Positions 26,236-53,328 of a DNA stretch of 64,000 bases are shown piece after piece. The notes beneath the pieces were generated by a model. It saw only the letters and a list, made by a program, of their open reading frames with translations, ran no database searches and was not told where the DNA came from. The stretch lies in the NCBI RefSeq assembly GCF_028764065.1, contig NZ_JACOFN010000006.1, forward strand, positions 1 to 64,000. Reading direction: 5' to 3'. This DNA is from Fructobacillus sp. CRL 2054. GTDB lineage: Bacteria; Bacillota; Bacilli; Lactobacillales; Lactobacillaceae. The position numbers and the translations under genes are program-made. The stretch's first letter is position 1; each line of letters begins with the position of its first letter.

Positions 26236-26423
26236 TGTGTAGAAAGCTTTTGTATAAGAATTTGTGAGCAAAGTAAAAGATTGTTTCACTCAATAAAAAT
26301 TGCTTTTTCATGTCAAAATCACTTAAATATTTTTATTTTTCACATTCTAAAATTTGAATAGAAACAACAATAAAAAGTATTTTACAAAGAGTGATTTCAA
26401 AACAATGAATTTATTTTCCAATT

Positions 26424-26459
26424 AAAAAGAGGCGCTAACTTAATCGTTAGTGCCTCTTT
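26424..26459. terminator. Terminator of the 26498 gene
   Basis: AAAGAGGCGCTAAC pairs with GTTAGTGCCTCTTT (one wobble); leftward it ends in TTTTT. Confidence 0.85.
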
Positions 26460-26497
26460 ATTTATCAAAGTTACGAAAAACTTCAATAAAAAATTAA

Positions 26498-44684: not shown

Positions 44685-45425
44685 ATGCTCATCGTTCTTT
44701 ACGGATTCATCATTGGTTGCTTTGTCACCTTAATTGGTGGTGGCGGCGCGACTTTTTACCTTGGTGTCTTAACCTCATCAATGGCCATGTCAACTGAAAT
44801 GGCCGTGCCAACCTCACTCTTTATTGCGGTTTTCGCCCTCCTTTCTGGCTTCCTAACCCAACTCAAATTAAAAAACGTGGAGGTTCGAATCGGTAACCGC
44901 TTGATTTTGGCAGCCATCCCCGGTATCTTGATTGGAACCTATCTCTCCCGCTTCATCCCCGCTCACATTTACCAACGAGCTGTTGGAATCCTACTAACCG
45001 TGATGGGCTGCATCGTTTTGTACAAGAACGTCTTTGCGAAGAAGAAAAAGAAGGAACCTTCCAAGAATTCAAAGGTTGCCCTCATCTTTGGTTTCATTTC
45101 TGGTATAATGGTTGGGTTCGGTGGCCTTTCCGGAGGATCTGCCACCGTTGCCGGTCTTTCCATTATTGGACTGCCAGCTGTTAAGGCAACCGGTACCACA
45201 ACCTACATTCTTTGGGTATTGGCCGTTGTTGGTTTAATCAGCCATTTGGTTGCCGGTTCCCCAATTTCTTGGACTGCCGGTCTCTTCTTAATGATTGGTG
45301 GTATCATTGGATCGATTTTGACCCCACTCGTTCTCCGACTTTTCGATCAAAAGAAACTAAACAAGTTCCTATCCCCACTACTAGGAATTGTCATTATCTA
45401 CTTTGGATTGAACTTAATCTTCTAA
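44685..45425 (+). CDS. TauE/SafE-family sulfite/anion exporter
   Basis: A 246-residue membrane protein with about eight helices. The repeated glycine motifs CFVTLIGGGGATFYLGVL near the start and MVGFGGLSGGSATVAGL in the second half are typical of the TauE/SafE (UPF0721) family. These proteins move small organosulfur or carboxylate anions; the substrate here is unknown. AAAAGGAAA serves as ribosome site. Monocistronic, ending at a strong terminator. Confidence 0.9.
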   Translation: MLIVLYGFIIGCFVTLIGGGGATFYLGVLTSSMAMSTEMAVPTSLFIAVFALLSGFLTQLKLKNVEVRIGNRLILAAIPGILIGTYLSRFIPAHIYQRAVGILLTVMGCIVLYKNVFAKKKKKEPSKNSKVALIFGFISGIMVGFGGLSGGSATVAGLSIIGLPAVKATGTTTYILWVLAVVGLISHLVAGSPISWTAGLFLMIGGIIGSILTPLVLRLFDQKKLNKFLSPLLGIVIIYFGLNLIF

Positions 45426-45465: not shown

Positions 45466-46263
45466 TTACTTTGTCACCCGAACTTCGACGTCTGAGAAGC
45501 CATGGTTAAAGCTGGCCTTCCAAGTACCTTCCGTCAACTTTGGAGGAAGTAAGAAAGTTCCGGCAGAGACGCGTTGTCCGGCTTTCAAAGTCTTGCCCTG
45601 ACTCGCCAACTTCTTGACCAACCACTGCAAAGAATTCAATGGGTTACCAAGTACTTCGCTTGAAGCACCGGTCGCCACTTCTTCGCCGTCGTGTTCAAGA
45701 GTCGTTGTCACCTGGGCAAGGTCGTCCAACTTGAAGCTGGCCGTTTCCTTTTCTTCACCGTAGACGACGAAGCCACCAACGGCAGCATCCGCCATCACCA
45801 AGTACTTAGGCAAAGTTGGGAACCAGTCCAAGAAACGGCAGTCAGGCACTTCGACACCTGAAGCAACCGTCGTCTTCTTGGCCAAGTCCTCCAATGAATC
45901 ATCAGTGCTCAAATCTTCCTTGGCCTTGAAGACCAATTCCACTTCGGCCAAAGGATCCATCAAATCCTTTGACAAACTCAAAGTCGCTGGTGACTTCACA
46001 AAGTGTGAACCAGTTTGGGCACCATAGAGGGGTTCGTTTGAATCAAACATATTTTGCGTTTCTTCACTAGTCAAGGAAACCTTGTAACCGGCCACGTCTT
46101 CATTCTTCAAGCGCAACAATTCATCTTGAACCAAGTATGAACGGTCGTCTTCTTTGACGACGTCTTGCCACTCAGCAACATCCAGGGCCTTGCCTGTCTT
46201 GAATGCTTCGTAAAGGGCGTTAGCCAAGTTCTTTTCTGCTGCTGTCAATTCTGTCTTTGTCAT
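45466..46263 (-). CDS. 2-keto-4-pentenoate hydratase family protein
   Basis: A 265-residue protein of the MhpD/FAH-like hydratase family. Visible blocks are GYKVSLTSEETQNMF, the metal-binding AEVELVFKAKEDL, ASGVEVPDCRF, ADAAVGGFVVYG, and the C-terminal AGTFLLPPKL. The family hydrates or decarboxylates 2-keto acids with Mg2+. No other meta-cleavage pathway gene is nearby, so the substrate is unclear. The gene lies behind an Ile-rich leader peptide and attenuator, suggesting a link to branched-chain or threonine metabolism. Start supported by AAAGGAG. Confidence 0.85.
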   Translation of the reverse strand: MTKTELTAAEKNLANALYEAFKTGKALDVAEWQDVVKEDDRSYLVQDELLRLKNEDVAGYKVSLTSEETQNMFDSNEPLYGAQTGSHFVKSPATLSLSKDLMDPLAEVELVFKAKEDLSTDDSLEDLAKKTTVASGVEVPDCRFLDWFPTLPKYLVMADAAVGGFVVYGEEKETASFKLDDLAQVTTTLEHDGEEVATGASSEVLGNPLNSLQWLVKKLASQGKTLKAGQRVSAGTFLLPPKLTEGTWKASFNHGFSDVEVRVTK

Positions 46264-46303
46264 GGTAATTCTCCTTTTGATTGTTAGTCTGTATTATTCA
46301 AAT

Positions 46304-46327
46304 AAAAAAGACGCCATCACTGGCGTC
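46304..46327 (-). terminator. Attenuator terminator before the hydratase gene
   Basis: Leftward GACGCCA pairs with TGGCGTC across GTGA and is followed by six T. It lies in the leader, 41 bases before the hydratase ATG. Its left arm (CGCCAGT) can instead pair with TACTGGCG at 46361-46354. Confidence 0.88.
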
Positions 46328-46350
46328 TAATCGAAAAAGATTGAAGAAAT

Positions 46351-46395
46351 CCGCCAGTAATATCTTAACTACTGGCATTGTAAAAAGTAGCCAGC
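46351..46395 (-). promoter_or_regulatory. Competing hairpin segments of the Ile attenuator
   Basis: Leftward segments: 1 = GCTGGC (46395-46390), 2 = GCCAGTA (46376-46370), 3 = TACTGGCG (46361-46354), 4 = CGCCAGT in the terminator. 1 pairs with 2, 2 with 3, and 3 with 4. Free pairing of 1 with 2 releases segment 3 to break the terminator; a ribosome at the leader stop covers segment 1, letting 2 pair with 3 so that the terminator forms. Confidence 0.65.
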
Positions 46396-46399
46396 ATTA

Positions 46400-46468
46400 T
46401 CAAGTGATAATAATGGCTGCAATAATGTTCAATTGACGGTTCGTCTGCTTCACATTTGATTTCAACAT
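46400..46468 (-). CDS. Ile-rich leader peptide (22 residues)
   Basis: An ORF from ATG at 46468 to TGA at 46400, preceded by AAAGGAGAAAGATT, an excellent ribosome site. The peptide begins MLKSNVKQTNRQLN and ends IIAAIIIT: five Ile codons in the last eight. It follows a consensus promoter and precedes competing hairpins and a terminator, the layout of ribosome-mediated attenuation. Ile-tRNA shortage would stall ribosomes before segment 1 and favour read-through into the hydratase gene. Confidence 0.75.
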   Translation of the reverse strand: MLKSNVKQTNRQLNIIAAIIIT

Positions 46469-46493
46469 AATCTTTCTCCTTTGTTTTTTTATT

Positions 46494-46522
46494 AGTATAA
46501 GACCGTTAAATGAGATAGTCAA
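46494..46522 (-). promoter_or_regulatory. Promoter of the Ile leader and hydratase gene
   Basis: Leftward TTGACT (46522-46517), exactly 17 bases, TATACT (46499-46494). The leader ATG follows 26 bases later. It lies 46 bases after the trpA stop. Confidence 0.85.
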
Positions 46523-46568
46523 TAGAAAATTATCATTTATTTTTAATAATCAGTTATTCCCACTTCTT

Positions 46569-47345
46569 TTACCCACGGATAGCAGCTACCATTTCCTTGG
46601 CATAGGCTTCCAAATGTGGCGCAGCTTCCTTACCATACTGCTCACAGATGGCGACACATGCTGAACCAACAATGACACCATCGGCAATCGCTGCCATCTC
46701 CTTGGCTTGTTCAGGACTATGAATTCCAAAACCAATAAAGACGGGCAATTCCGTATTCCGCTTCACATCCCTCACAACTTCCTTCAAGTTCTTTGCAAAA
46801 GTCGTACGTTCTCCAGTGACACCAAGCGATGAAACCAAGTAAACAAATCCCTGGGCCTTTTCGACAATCATTGGAATTCTTTCACCTGAATTAGTGGTCA
46901 CCAGTGAAATCAAATCAATGTTTTCTTCGTCCGTGTATGGTCGCAGTTCTCCCTGCTCTTCCGTTGGCAAATCCGGAATAATTAAGCCATCAATGCCGTA
47001 CTTAGCACAATCGGCGGCAAAGCGTTCGTAGCCGTACTGAACAATAATATTGAAGTAAACCAGGAAAGCCAAGGGCACATCGGTTTTCTCACGGACTTTT
47101 CCAACCGCTTCAAAGATTCTTTCAATTGGCAAATCTGGATCTTTCAAAGCACGCACATCGGCGGCCTGAATCACCGGCCCGTCGGCAACCGGATCCGAAA
47201 AAGGAATGCCGATTTCAACTAAATCCGCGCCACCCTTTGCCAAGGCAACCACGTTCTCAACCGTTGCCTCCAAATCGGGGTCATTAGCCGTCACGAAGGC
47301 CACAAAGTTTTTCTTACCCATGAGGGCGTCTTGTATTTTACTCAT
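46569..47345 (-). CDS. trpA: Tryptophan synthase alpha chain
   Basis: A 258-residue alpha subunit. Key blocks: [37 protein letters not shown] with the catalytic Glu, [11 protein letters not shown], and [25 protein letters not shown]. It cleaves indole-glycerol phosphate to indole. The ATG at 47345 overlaps the trpB stop in ATGAGTAA, behind AAGGAG. It is the last gene of trpEGDCFBA. No strong terminator follows; the next promoter begins 46 bases on. Confidence 0.97.
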
Positions 47346-53003: not shown

Positions 53004-53290
53004 AAAAATCCGTCCAAAACAAAACAGTTCATGCTTTGTTAAGGACGGATTTTCTCCGCGGTGCCACCTTAATTGATTCGAAAAAGAGCCTAGCTAAAAA
53101 AAGCTTGGTTGAATTCGAAATCCTCCTTAGCGAGATACCAACATATCCCCGGCAACTGACGTATGCCCGACGTTTCGCGTACTTGATTACTCTTTCAGCA
53201 GAACCCTCCGTGGTCCATTTAACTGCCTGCGTTCGGTTACCTTCTCAGCATCGGTAACTCTCTTTGCGTGCACAACAATCTTGATCTCCA
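53004..53290 (-). promoter_or_regulatory. T-box leader with Trp specifier (UGG)
   Basis: Leftward the T-box core AAGGTGGCACCGCGG (53070-53056) is followed by the terminator: a stem AAAATCCGTCC/GGACGGATTTTTT between 53054 and 53004. In stem I, a UGG codon followed by A (53217-53215) is placed as specifier. The UGGC of the core fits a tRNA-Trp with discriminator G. Uncharged tRNA-Trp would stabilise the antiterminator and switch on trpEGDCFBA. Confidence 0.9.
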
Positions 53291-53328
53291 CATCCTTGGT
53301 TTGTTTGGACGAATATTTAATTGCTCTA

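Follow-up and report, generated by a model that had tools for sequence, protein, structure and literature searches.

Organisation of the hydratase leader

The window, that is, the whole 64,000-nt stretch of DNA analysed here, belongs to a Fructobacillus genome near F. durionis. On its - strand, a putative attenuator spans positions 46303-46522 and lies between trpA (end at 46569; PF00290) and a hydratase-like gene (46263-45466). The original prediction had placed here a consensus promoter, a ribosome site, a 22-codon ORF with five isoleucine (Ile) codons among its last eight and a strong terminator, and all four were recovered. The elements of the locus are the following:

46494-46522, - strand: sigma-70-type promoter TTGACT-17-TATACT, 10 of 12 consensus bases; 28 of 29 nt are the same in F. 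durionis
46476-46482, - strand: Shine-Dalgarno AAAGGAG of the leader ORF, read from the sequence
46400-46468, - strand: leader ORF MLKSNVKQTNRQLNIIAAIIIT*, 22 codons, ATG at 46468 to TGA at 46400; 67 of 69 nt are identical in F. durionis
46405-46418, - strand: segment 1, overlapping the last Ile codons
46389-46402, - strand: segment 2, partner of segment 1 or, via TGCTGGC, of segment 3 (1:2 and 2:3 are alternatives)
46368-46377, - strand: segment 3
46352-46361, - strand: segment 4, partner of segment 3 or, as antiterminator, of segment 5
46309-46328, - strand: segments 5:6, intrinsic terminator AGACGCCAGTGATGGCGTCT followed by TTTTTT (U6); positions 46303-46328 are identical in F. durionis (26/26 nt)
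45466-46263, - strand: 2-keto-4-pentenoate hydratase (MhpD/DmpE)-like protein, 265 aa (TIGR03220, E=9.6e-26)

Codons 15-21 of the leader ORF encode IIAAIII, the five Ile codons (AUU AUU .. AUU AUU AUC) occupying 46426-46421 and 46414-46406, and segment 2 opens with the stop codon. A scan of both strands of the 64-kb window for ORFs of 10-40 codons with five Ile among the last eight returned this ORF alone, in five rows that represent alternative starts. The RNA had been described as a chain of four segments. We find six, which can pair in two mutually exclusive sets, either 1:2, 3:4 and 5:6, with 5:6 as the terminator, or 2:3 and 4:5, which form the antiterminator; segment 5, the 5′ arm of the terminator, has its alternative upstream partner in segment 4. 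The predicted folding energy of the leader RNA is -62.1 kcal/mol, compared with -35.5 (sd 3.7) for 200 dinucleotide shuffles (z = -7.2). A scan of the gap between trpA and the hydratase promoter (46523-46568) returned no terminator-like site, so that transcripts reading through from the trp genes may also pass under the gating of the attenuator.

The hydratase is a family-like protein and no equivalog: it scores 90.7 bits against TIGR03220, whose cut-off is 408.8, falls short of the cut-off in each of the four named models with a match and has no Pfam match at E≤0.001. The closest solved sequences are 2wqt and 1sv6 (E=1.5e-14), and the protein retains their E-x-E and GxKVxLT motifs, which we take to be active-site residues. 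The next gene, of the TauE/SafE family (44685-45425, + strand), is convergent, and the hydratase therefore appears to be a single-gene transcript. A search of the window genome, whose assembly is 91.8% complete, gave no match to ilvD, a result consistent with Ile auxotrophy of this organism.

Conservation of the leader within Fructobacillus

The window hydratase and its counterpart in F. durionis DSM 19113 share 97% identity, and the leader is conserved more strictly than its surroundings. Between the two species, the leader ORF and the RNA segments are identical at 163 of 166 nt and the RNA downstream of the leader ORF at 96 of 97 nt. All 23 third positions of the leader codons are the same, as are 21 of the 22 residues of the peptide, compared with identities of 71.4% at the third positions of the hydratase gene, 84.8% over trpA and 19/26 nt after the terminator. 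A third Fructobacillus genome, G006, carries a diverged leader, MLKSKTMLNNSNIIVAIIIIT, in which the Ile run is intact, one of the two Ala of IIAAIII is Val, a 6-nt gap keeps the frame and the same segments can be drawn. The peptide frame, whose loss would have counted against the original prediction, is in this way preserved in both relatives. In G006 the leader precedes a two-gene unit that consists of a PTS_EIIC_2 gene (PF13303) followed by a hydratase gene, likewise adjoining trpA, and the encoded hydratase is 70-71% identical. The window genome and F. durionis have a PTS_EIIC_2 gene elsewhere, 76% identical to that of G006 and equipped with its own Ile leader, MTTTKQSTQLNNVIVISIIII (L185 and L186, respectively). 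Helices 1:2 and 2:3 are both 100% paired in the three Fructobacillus hydratase leaders, two of which are nearly identical; these leaders are too few and too alike for covariation, and their scores for the two helix sets were reached by 179/500 and 500/500 shuffles.

T-boxes before the hydratase in relatives

Control of this gene by Ile, rather than of an ilv gene, had been regarded as unexpected. The relatives point the other way. The hydratase is present at E≤1e-20 in 175 of 397 Lactobacillaceae genomes, and an iterated profile found a T-box in 138 of 147 regions upstream of hydratase homologues in this family, always with the Ile specifier ATC (138/138); since its seed was a single T-box from the same set, this profile could miss a very different T-box. 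A T-box senses uncharged tRNA directly, without a ribosome. The genus itself is divided, since five of its eight hydratase loci have a T-box (L004-L008) and three have the putative attenuator (window, F. durionis and G006). These three account for a third of the nine regions without a T-box. Another, in G188, has an Ile-rich leader, MKNTSYKNSRIIISIIIIE, which by eye resembles those of brnQ, one (L084) has the T-box-associated peptide described below in the absence of the T-box, and in the remaining four neither an Ile leader nor such a peptide was seen.

At the window locus, we found no T-box between 46300 and 46600 among the 19 genome-wide matches at E≤0.001, none with the profile that detects 138 of them before homologues, and, over 1500 upstream nt, no antiterminator motif of the T-box type. 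The 19 matches, six of which exceed the gathering score, indicate that T-boxes have not been lost from this genome in general. Rfam at gathering score returned nothing in the window, which carries no weight against a T-box because 13 of the 19 genomic matches also lie under that score.

Several further observations were made around these loci. Many relatives (T-box-bearing loci among L010-L173, for instance L018, L023 and L065) have another conserved small ORF, M[EK]SDIS..[ND]D..GQIQI, placed after the Ile T-box and before the hydratase; such ORFs occur in 113 of the 138 T-box regions, and 105 of these 113 fit a loose motif. Its Shine-Dalgarno is often AAAGGTGGTGAGG, its Ile codons are mostly ATT (335/477), its N-terminus is conserved and its C-terminus variable, and its end sometimes falls near or over the hydratase start. 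It may provide a second, translational control by Ile; by eye, L010 and L024 have hairpins around the hydratase ribosome site. The window peptide was considered as a homologue of this peptide on account of a by-eye likeness (KS..I/V...QI/L), a proposal that we rejected after 1894 of 2000 shuffles scored as high with the family HMM. A TPP riboswitch occurs near the hydratase in other Fructobacillus and Convivina (L004-L009, L017), and in Convivina L032 the hydratase is flanked, by eye, by thiamine-like and trp-like genes. In the window itself, a T-box match of 80.2 bits, below the gathering score, lies just upstream of trpE (53038-53305, - strand).

A family of homologous Ile leaders before PTS_EIIC_2 and brnQ genes

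An Ile- or Ile/Val-rich leader was found within 400 nt in 21 of 40 regions upstream of PTS_EIIC_2 homologues, and all 18 homologues that are at least 55% identical to the G006 protein, itself counted, have one. The rule used to call such leaders fired in 1 of 138 hydratase regions that bear a T-box and in 44 of 2760 shuffled ones; it misses the G188 leader owing to its weak Shine-Dalgarno. It returned nothing at six Fructobacillus PTS_EIIC_2 paralogues (L190-L195) or at 12 of 13 more distant paralogues (L211-L223), and the match at L215 was dropped, being 481 nt upstream of its PTS_EIIC_2 gene. Hydratase and PTS_EIIC_2 genes lie within 15 kb of each other in 9 of the 57 genomes with both, among the matches listed, a count that includes some distant PTS_EIIC_2 paralogues, is uncorrected for shared ancestry and is suggestive only. 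Two observations concern T-boxes beside such genes: at L216 (G191), a PTS_EIIC_2 homologue with an upstream T-box profile match (E=3.8e-19) diverges from a hydratase gene 0.9 kb away, which suggests that T-box control extends to the transporter as well, and at G000:C6:20445-21818 (L177) a PTS_EIIC_2 paralogue is followed by a T-box on the same strand, with the specifier GUC (Val) by eye.

We aligned 13 of the 21 PTS-type leaders, holding back G006 and leaving aside L186, which is near-identical to L185, together with L188, L189, L205, L208, L209 and L210, which are hard to align. The terminal Ile run reads III in 12 of the 13 and IIM in L199; in these leaders, which had been chosen by the Ile-richness rule, it lies in the 1:2 loop, outside the stem, and pairing therefore does not explain it. 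Synonymous ATT/ATC changes occur within the run across leaders, and the last ten codons of the 21 PTS-type leaders contain 111 Ile and 30 Val codons. Leaders of different genes have dissimilar N-terminal halves and keep the Ile-rich end, partly through the selection rule. Covariation in relatives had been proposed as a check on the structure, and its outcome was divided. The nested helices 1:2, 3:4 and 5:6 show both-sided changes in 8 of 21 pairs, with a covariation of 0.315 vs 0.200 that was reached by 0/500 shuffles, under a control that ignores relatedness and with a structure set by eye on one row. For the antiterminating pairs 2:3 and 4:5, in which 94.8% of cells can pair, there was a single both-sided change, and 151/500 shuffles reached the score.

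A covariance model, R1, built solely from the 13 PTS_EIIC_2 leaders, recovered the window hydratase leader, unused in training, at 46303-46429 (E=1.8e-9, whole genome). Further matches outside the training set were the leaders of F. durionis (8.3e-10), G006 (3e-9) and the hydratase of G188 (E=2e-7, search of 116 kb) and, at lower significance, eight brnQ leaders (9.1e-5 to 3.9e-4; these E-values are rough). At E≤0.001, R1 matched in 12 of 60 genomes, the window's included, five of the 12 containing a training sequence, and in none of 23 genomes outside the family, in a search whose filters lose weak matches. We set aside one match (G002:C7, L247, 9.6e-4), which is without an Ile leader and resembles a plain terminator at a gene end. 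A weak match of 26.2 bits at window positions 26373-26461, + strand (E=0.0024 in a 116-kb search), may also be a plain terminator. In total, the window genome has three such leaders, that of the hydratase and these two:

G000:C22:9274-9418 (L185, L226): putative Ile attenuator before the PTS_EIIC_2 gene
G000:C26:43754-43883 (L248): putative Ile attenuator before brnQ, leader MTHSMTNNQAIIISIIIP (R1, E=1.7e-4)

The brnQ gene of the window genome (PF05525, E=1e-113) belongs to branched-chain amino acid transport, and a similar leader precedes a brnQ-like ORF in six other Fructobacillus genomes and in one of another genus; Pfam was run on two of these eight brnQ-like ORFs and the rest were recognised by eye.

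Ribosome position and the fate of the terminator

Taken on sequence and folding models, the hydratase leader is very probably a ribosome-mediated transcription attenuator that senses tRNA-Ile charging and belongs to an Ile (Ile/Val) family, standing where relatives have an Ile T-box. The leader transcript would be driven by its own promoter. When Ile is ample, the ribosome would reach the stop codon, or never load, helix 3:4 would form, together with 1:2 if this is free, and the terminator 5:6 would end transcription before the hydratase gene. When charged Ile-tRNA is scarce, the ribosome would stall on the Ile codons and mask segment 1, segment 2 would pair with segment 3, and segment 4 would become available to the terminator's 5′ arm; with 4:5 formed, transcription would run on into the hydratase gene. 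The original prediction had assigned the pairing 1:2 to the stalled state. These roles are reversed here, with segment 1 covered by the stalled ribosome and 1:2 belonging to the terminating state.

We placed a ribosome at each leader codon, folded the remaining RNA and read the probability of the terminator, P(terminator), in an equilibrium model. For the window leader, free RNA and a ribosome on the stop codon both gave 0.98, and ribosomes on codons 2-14 gave 0.96-0.98; the value was 0.84/0.60 at Ile15/16, 0.16/0.14 at Ala17/18 and 0.44/0.40/0.44 at Ile19-21. In the folding models, only a ribosome stalled within codons 15-21 thus weakens the window terminator, about 40% of which is kept in the Ile-stalled state at equilibrium. 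A stall at Ala17/18 would antiterminate even more than stalls at Ile. The pattern at the Ile codons of F. durionis is the same (0.85, 0.65, 0.41, 0.38 and 0.41), with a weaker dip at Ala17/18 (0.48/0.40). None of 400 dinucleotide shuffles of the region from codon 15 to the terminator reproduced the on/off pattern, the largest dip being 0.04 vs 0.54. Among nine leaders scanned, P(terminator) fell below 0.6 only in the window, F. durionis and L185. In the G006 and G188 leaders it stayed at or above 0.97 in equilibrium folding, so that read-through there would rest on co-transcriptional folding.

As a proxy for co-transcriptional (kinetic) folding, we asked whether the 5′ arm of the terminator has engaged an upstream partner before the 3′ arm is transcribed. 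In the window leader, the proxy is 0.73-0.77 on the Ile codons vs 0.50 early and 0.54 at the stop codon. Across 31 leaders, a set that leaves out L186 and L210, the gain on Ile stalls exceeded 0.1 in 17 (vs 14 of 310 shuffled leaders), and there was a gain of any size in 26 (vs 68/310). It was at most 0.1 in 14 of the 31, the brnQ leader of the window genome among them (0.04), and zero or below in five, clearly so in L245 (-0.18) and L237 (-0.22). Folding and proxy together support the predicted antitermination upon an Ile stall and termination at the stop codon, and from these models we infer that the leader would respond to Ile in the cell.

Other readings of the same leader were weighed against this one. 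If any stall near codons 15-21, Ala codons included, released the terminator, the leader would be a general sensor of translation or of mixed amino acids, with no special sensing of Ile, as the minimum of P(terminator) with the A-site at Ala17/18 and the many Val codons of the PTS-type leaders (30 Val vs 111 Ile) would suggest. We consider this improbable, given that F. durionis shows a shallower Ala dip, that one Ala is Val in G006 and that the Ala pair is missing from the PTS and brnQ leaders, whereas the leaders examined do have an Ile run (in part a circular argument, most of these having been selected for Ile-richness); moreover, relatives keep the hydratase under Ile T-boxes. It is less probable still that the site combines a plain terminator of the trp operon with a hydratase promoter and a fortuitous small ORF. 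The lack of a terminator-like site between the end of trpA and the hydratase promoter in the scan would speak for it, but the terminator observed lies after the hydratase's own promoter, all leader third positions are identical between two species, homologous leaders stand before other genes at other loci, and the on/off pattern is missing from the 400 shuffles.

That the element is a degenerate or unusual T-box is very hard to credit: homologous genes do have T-boxes, and so, by the match at 53038-53305, do the trp genes upstream in the window, yet neither the genome-wide matches nor the profile of 138 T-boxes places one at 46300-46600, and the 1500 nt upstream are free of the antiterminator motif. 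We give just as slight a chance to the peptide itself being the product, as a small membrane protein or an arrest peptide to which the RNA structure would be secondary. Its hydrophobic C-terminus and the near identity of the peptide in F. durionis would fit such a role; against it stand the unlike N-terminal halves of leaders of different genes, of which the Ile-rich ends stay (partly an effect of the selection rule), and the synonymous ATT/ATC changes in the Ile run. Ribosome-mediated attenuation in response to tRNA-Ile charging remains the reading that we prefer.

Comparison with known systems

The his and ilv attenuators of Salmonella and E. coli, in proteobacterial biosynthetic operons, also combine successive alternative hairpins with control codons in runs. 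The Ile T-box (RF00230) before the homologous hydratase shares with the window leader the gene, the amino acid and the expected antitermination on Ile-tRNA shortage, and differs in being absent from the window locus. Among Firmicutes, the Rli60 leader of ilv-leu in Listeria monocytogenes is also a ribosome-mediated attenuator with a short peptide rich in branched-chain residues and a terminator/antiterminator pair, although it precedes ilv-leu biosynthesis genes and has four segments and a 13-aa peptide (PMC5864092). The leader of ilvD in Staphylococcus aureus, for which a T-box was considered and excluded, similarly applies leader-peptide attenuation to branched-chain amino acid genes but is Leu-rich and belongs to a biosynthetic operon (PMC5794164). 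Exchange of the sensor has a precedent in bacilli, in which hisS paralogues are preceded by His-leader peptides in place of the T-boxes of others (PMC2965389), and his attenuators are described in Firmicutes (PMC9413887). The hisS exchange likewise opposes a leader peptide in some Firmicutes to a T-box in others, for histidine and other genes (PMC2965389); at the hydratase, the exchange takes place inside a single genus, and further loci in the same genome carry homologous attenuators.

Wels et al. (2008) list an Ile T-box before L. acidophilus LBA1071, an 'Ile related hypothetical' gene, which may or may not be a homologue of the hydratase gene studied here. Our literature searches found no report of this Ile leader family, nor of Ile control of the hydratase under that name or of a hydratase with a T-box and isoleucine; for PF13303/PfoR, the papers listed had nothing on the PTS_EIIC_2 protein family in their titles or in the beginnings of their abstracts.

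History and significance

By sequence comparison, a putative leader-peptide attenuator occupies the place of the T-box at the hydratase, which falls into a predicted Ile regulon, and what appears unusual is the type of sensor, a leader peptide instead of a T-box. The attenuator class is known; the hydratase instance and the regulon are new as far as we have searched. In the simplest history, a module of Ile attenuator and transporter would have landed between trpA and the hydratase, the state seen in G006, and the transporter gene would later have been lost in the line of the window and F. durionis, leaving the attenuator on the hydratase; it is from the present arrangements that we infer the direction of the exchange between T-box and attenuator.

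More tentatively, and with somewhat less than even confidence, we propose that Ile acquisition in Ile-auxotrophic lactic acid bacteria involves, so far unrecognised, both the hydratase-like enzyme and the PTS_EIIC_2 membrane protein, joined by Ile sensors of two unrelated types, T-boxes and ribosome attenuators, and that a transferable Ile-attenuator cassette twice displaced the hydratase T-box, once by way of PTS_EIIC_2, in Fructobacillus, and once by way of a brnQ-like leader, in G188. Such a role, if true, would mean that an Ile precursor, for example a 2-oxo acid, is taken up or salvaged. The locus would offer a clean case of a gene at which, inside a single genus, one amino-acid sensor stands in place of another, while homologues of the replacing element persist elsewhere in the genome. 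In a genome rich in T-boxes, it would also widen the reach of leader-peptide attenuation to a small Ile regulon with brnQ among its members. For the hydratase-like enzyme and a PTS_EIIC_2 protein, for neither of which we found a described role, the assignment of an amino acid, Ile, makes that role testable.
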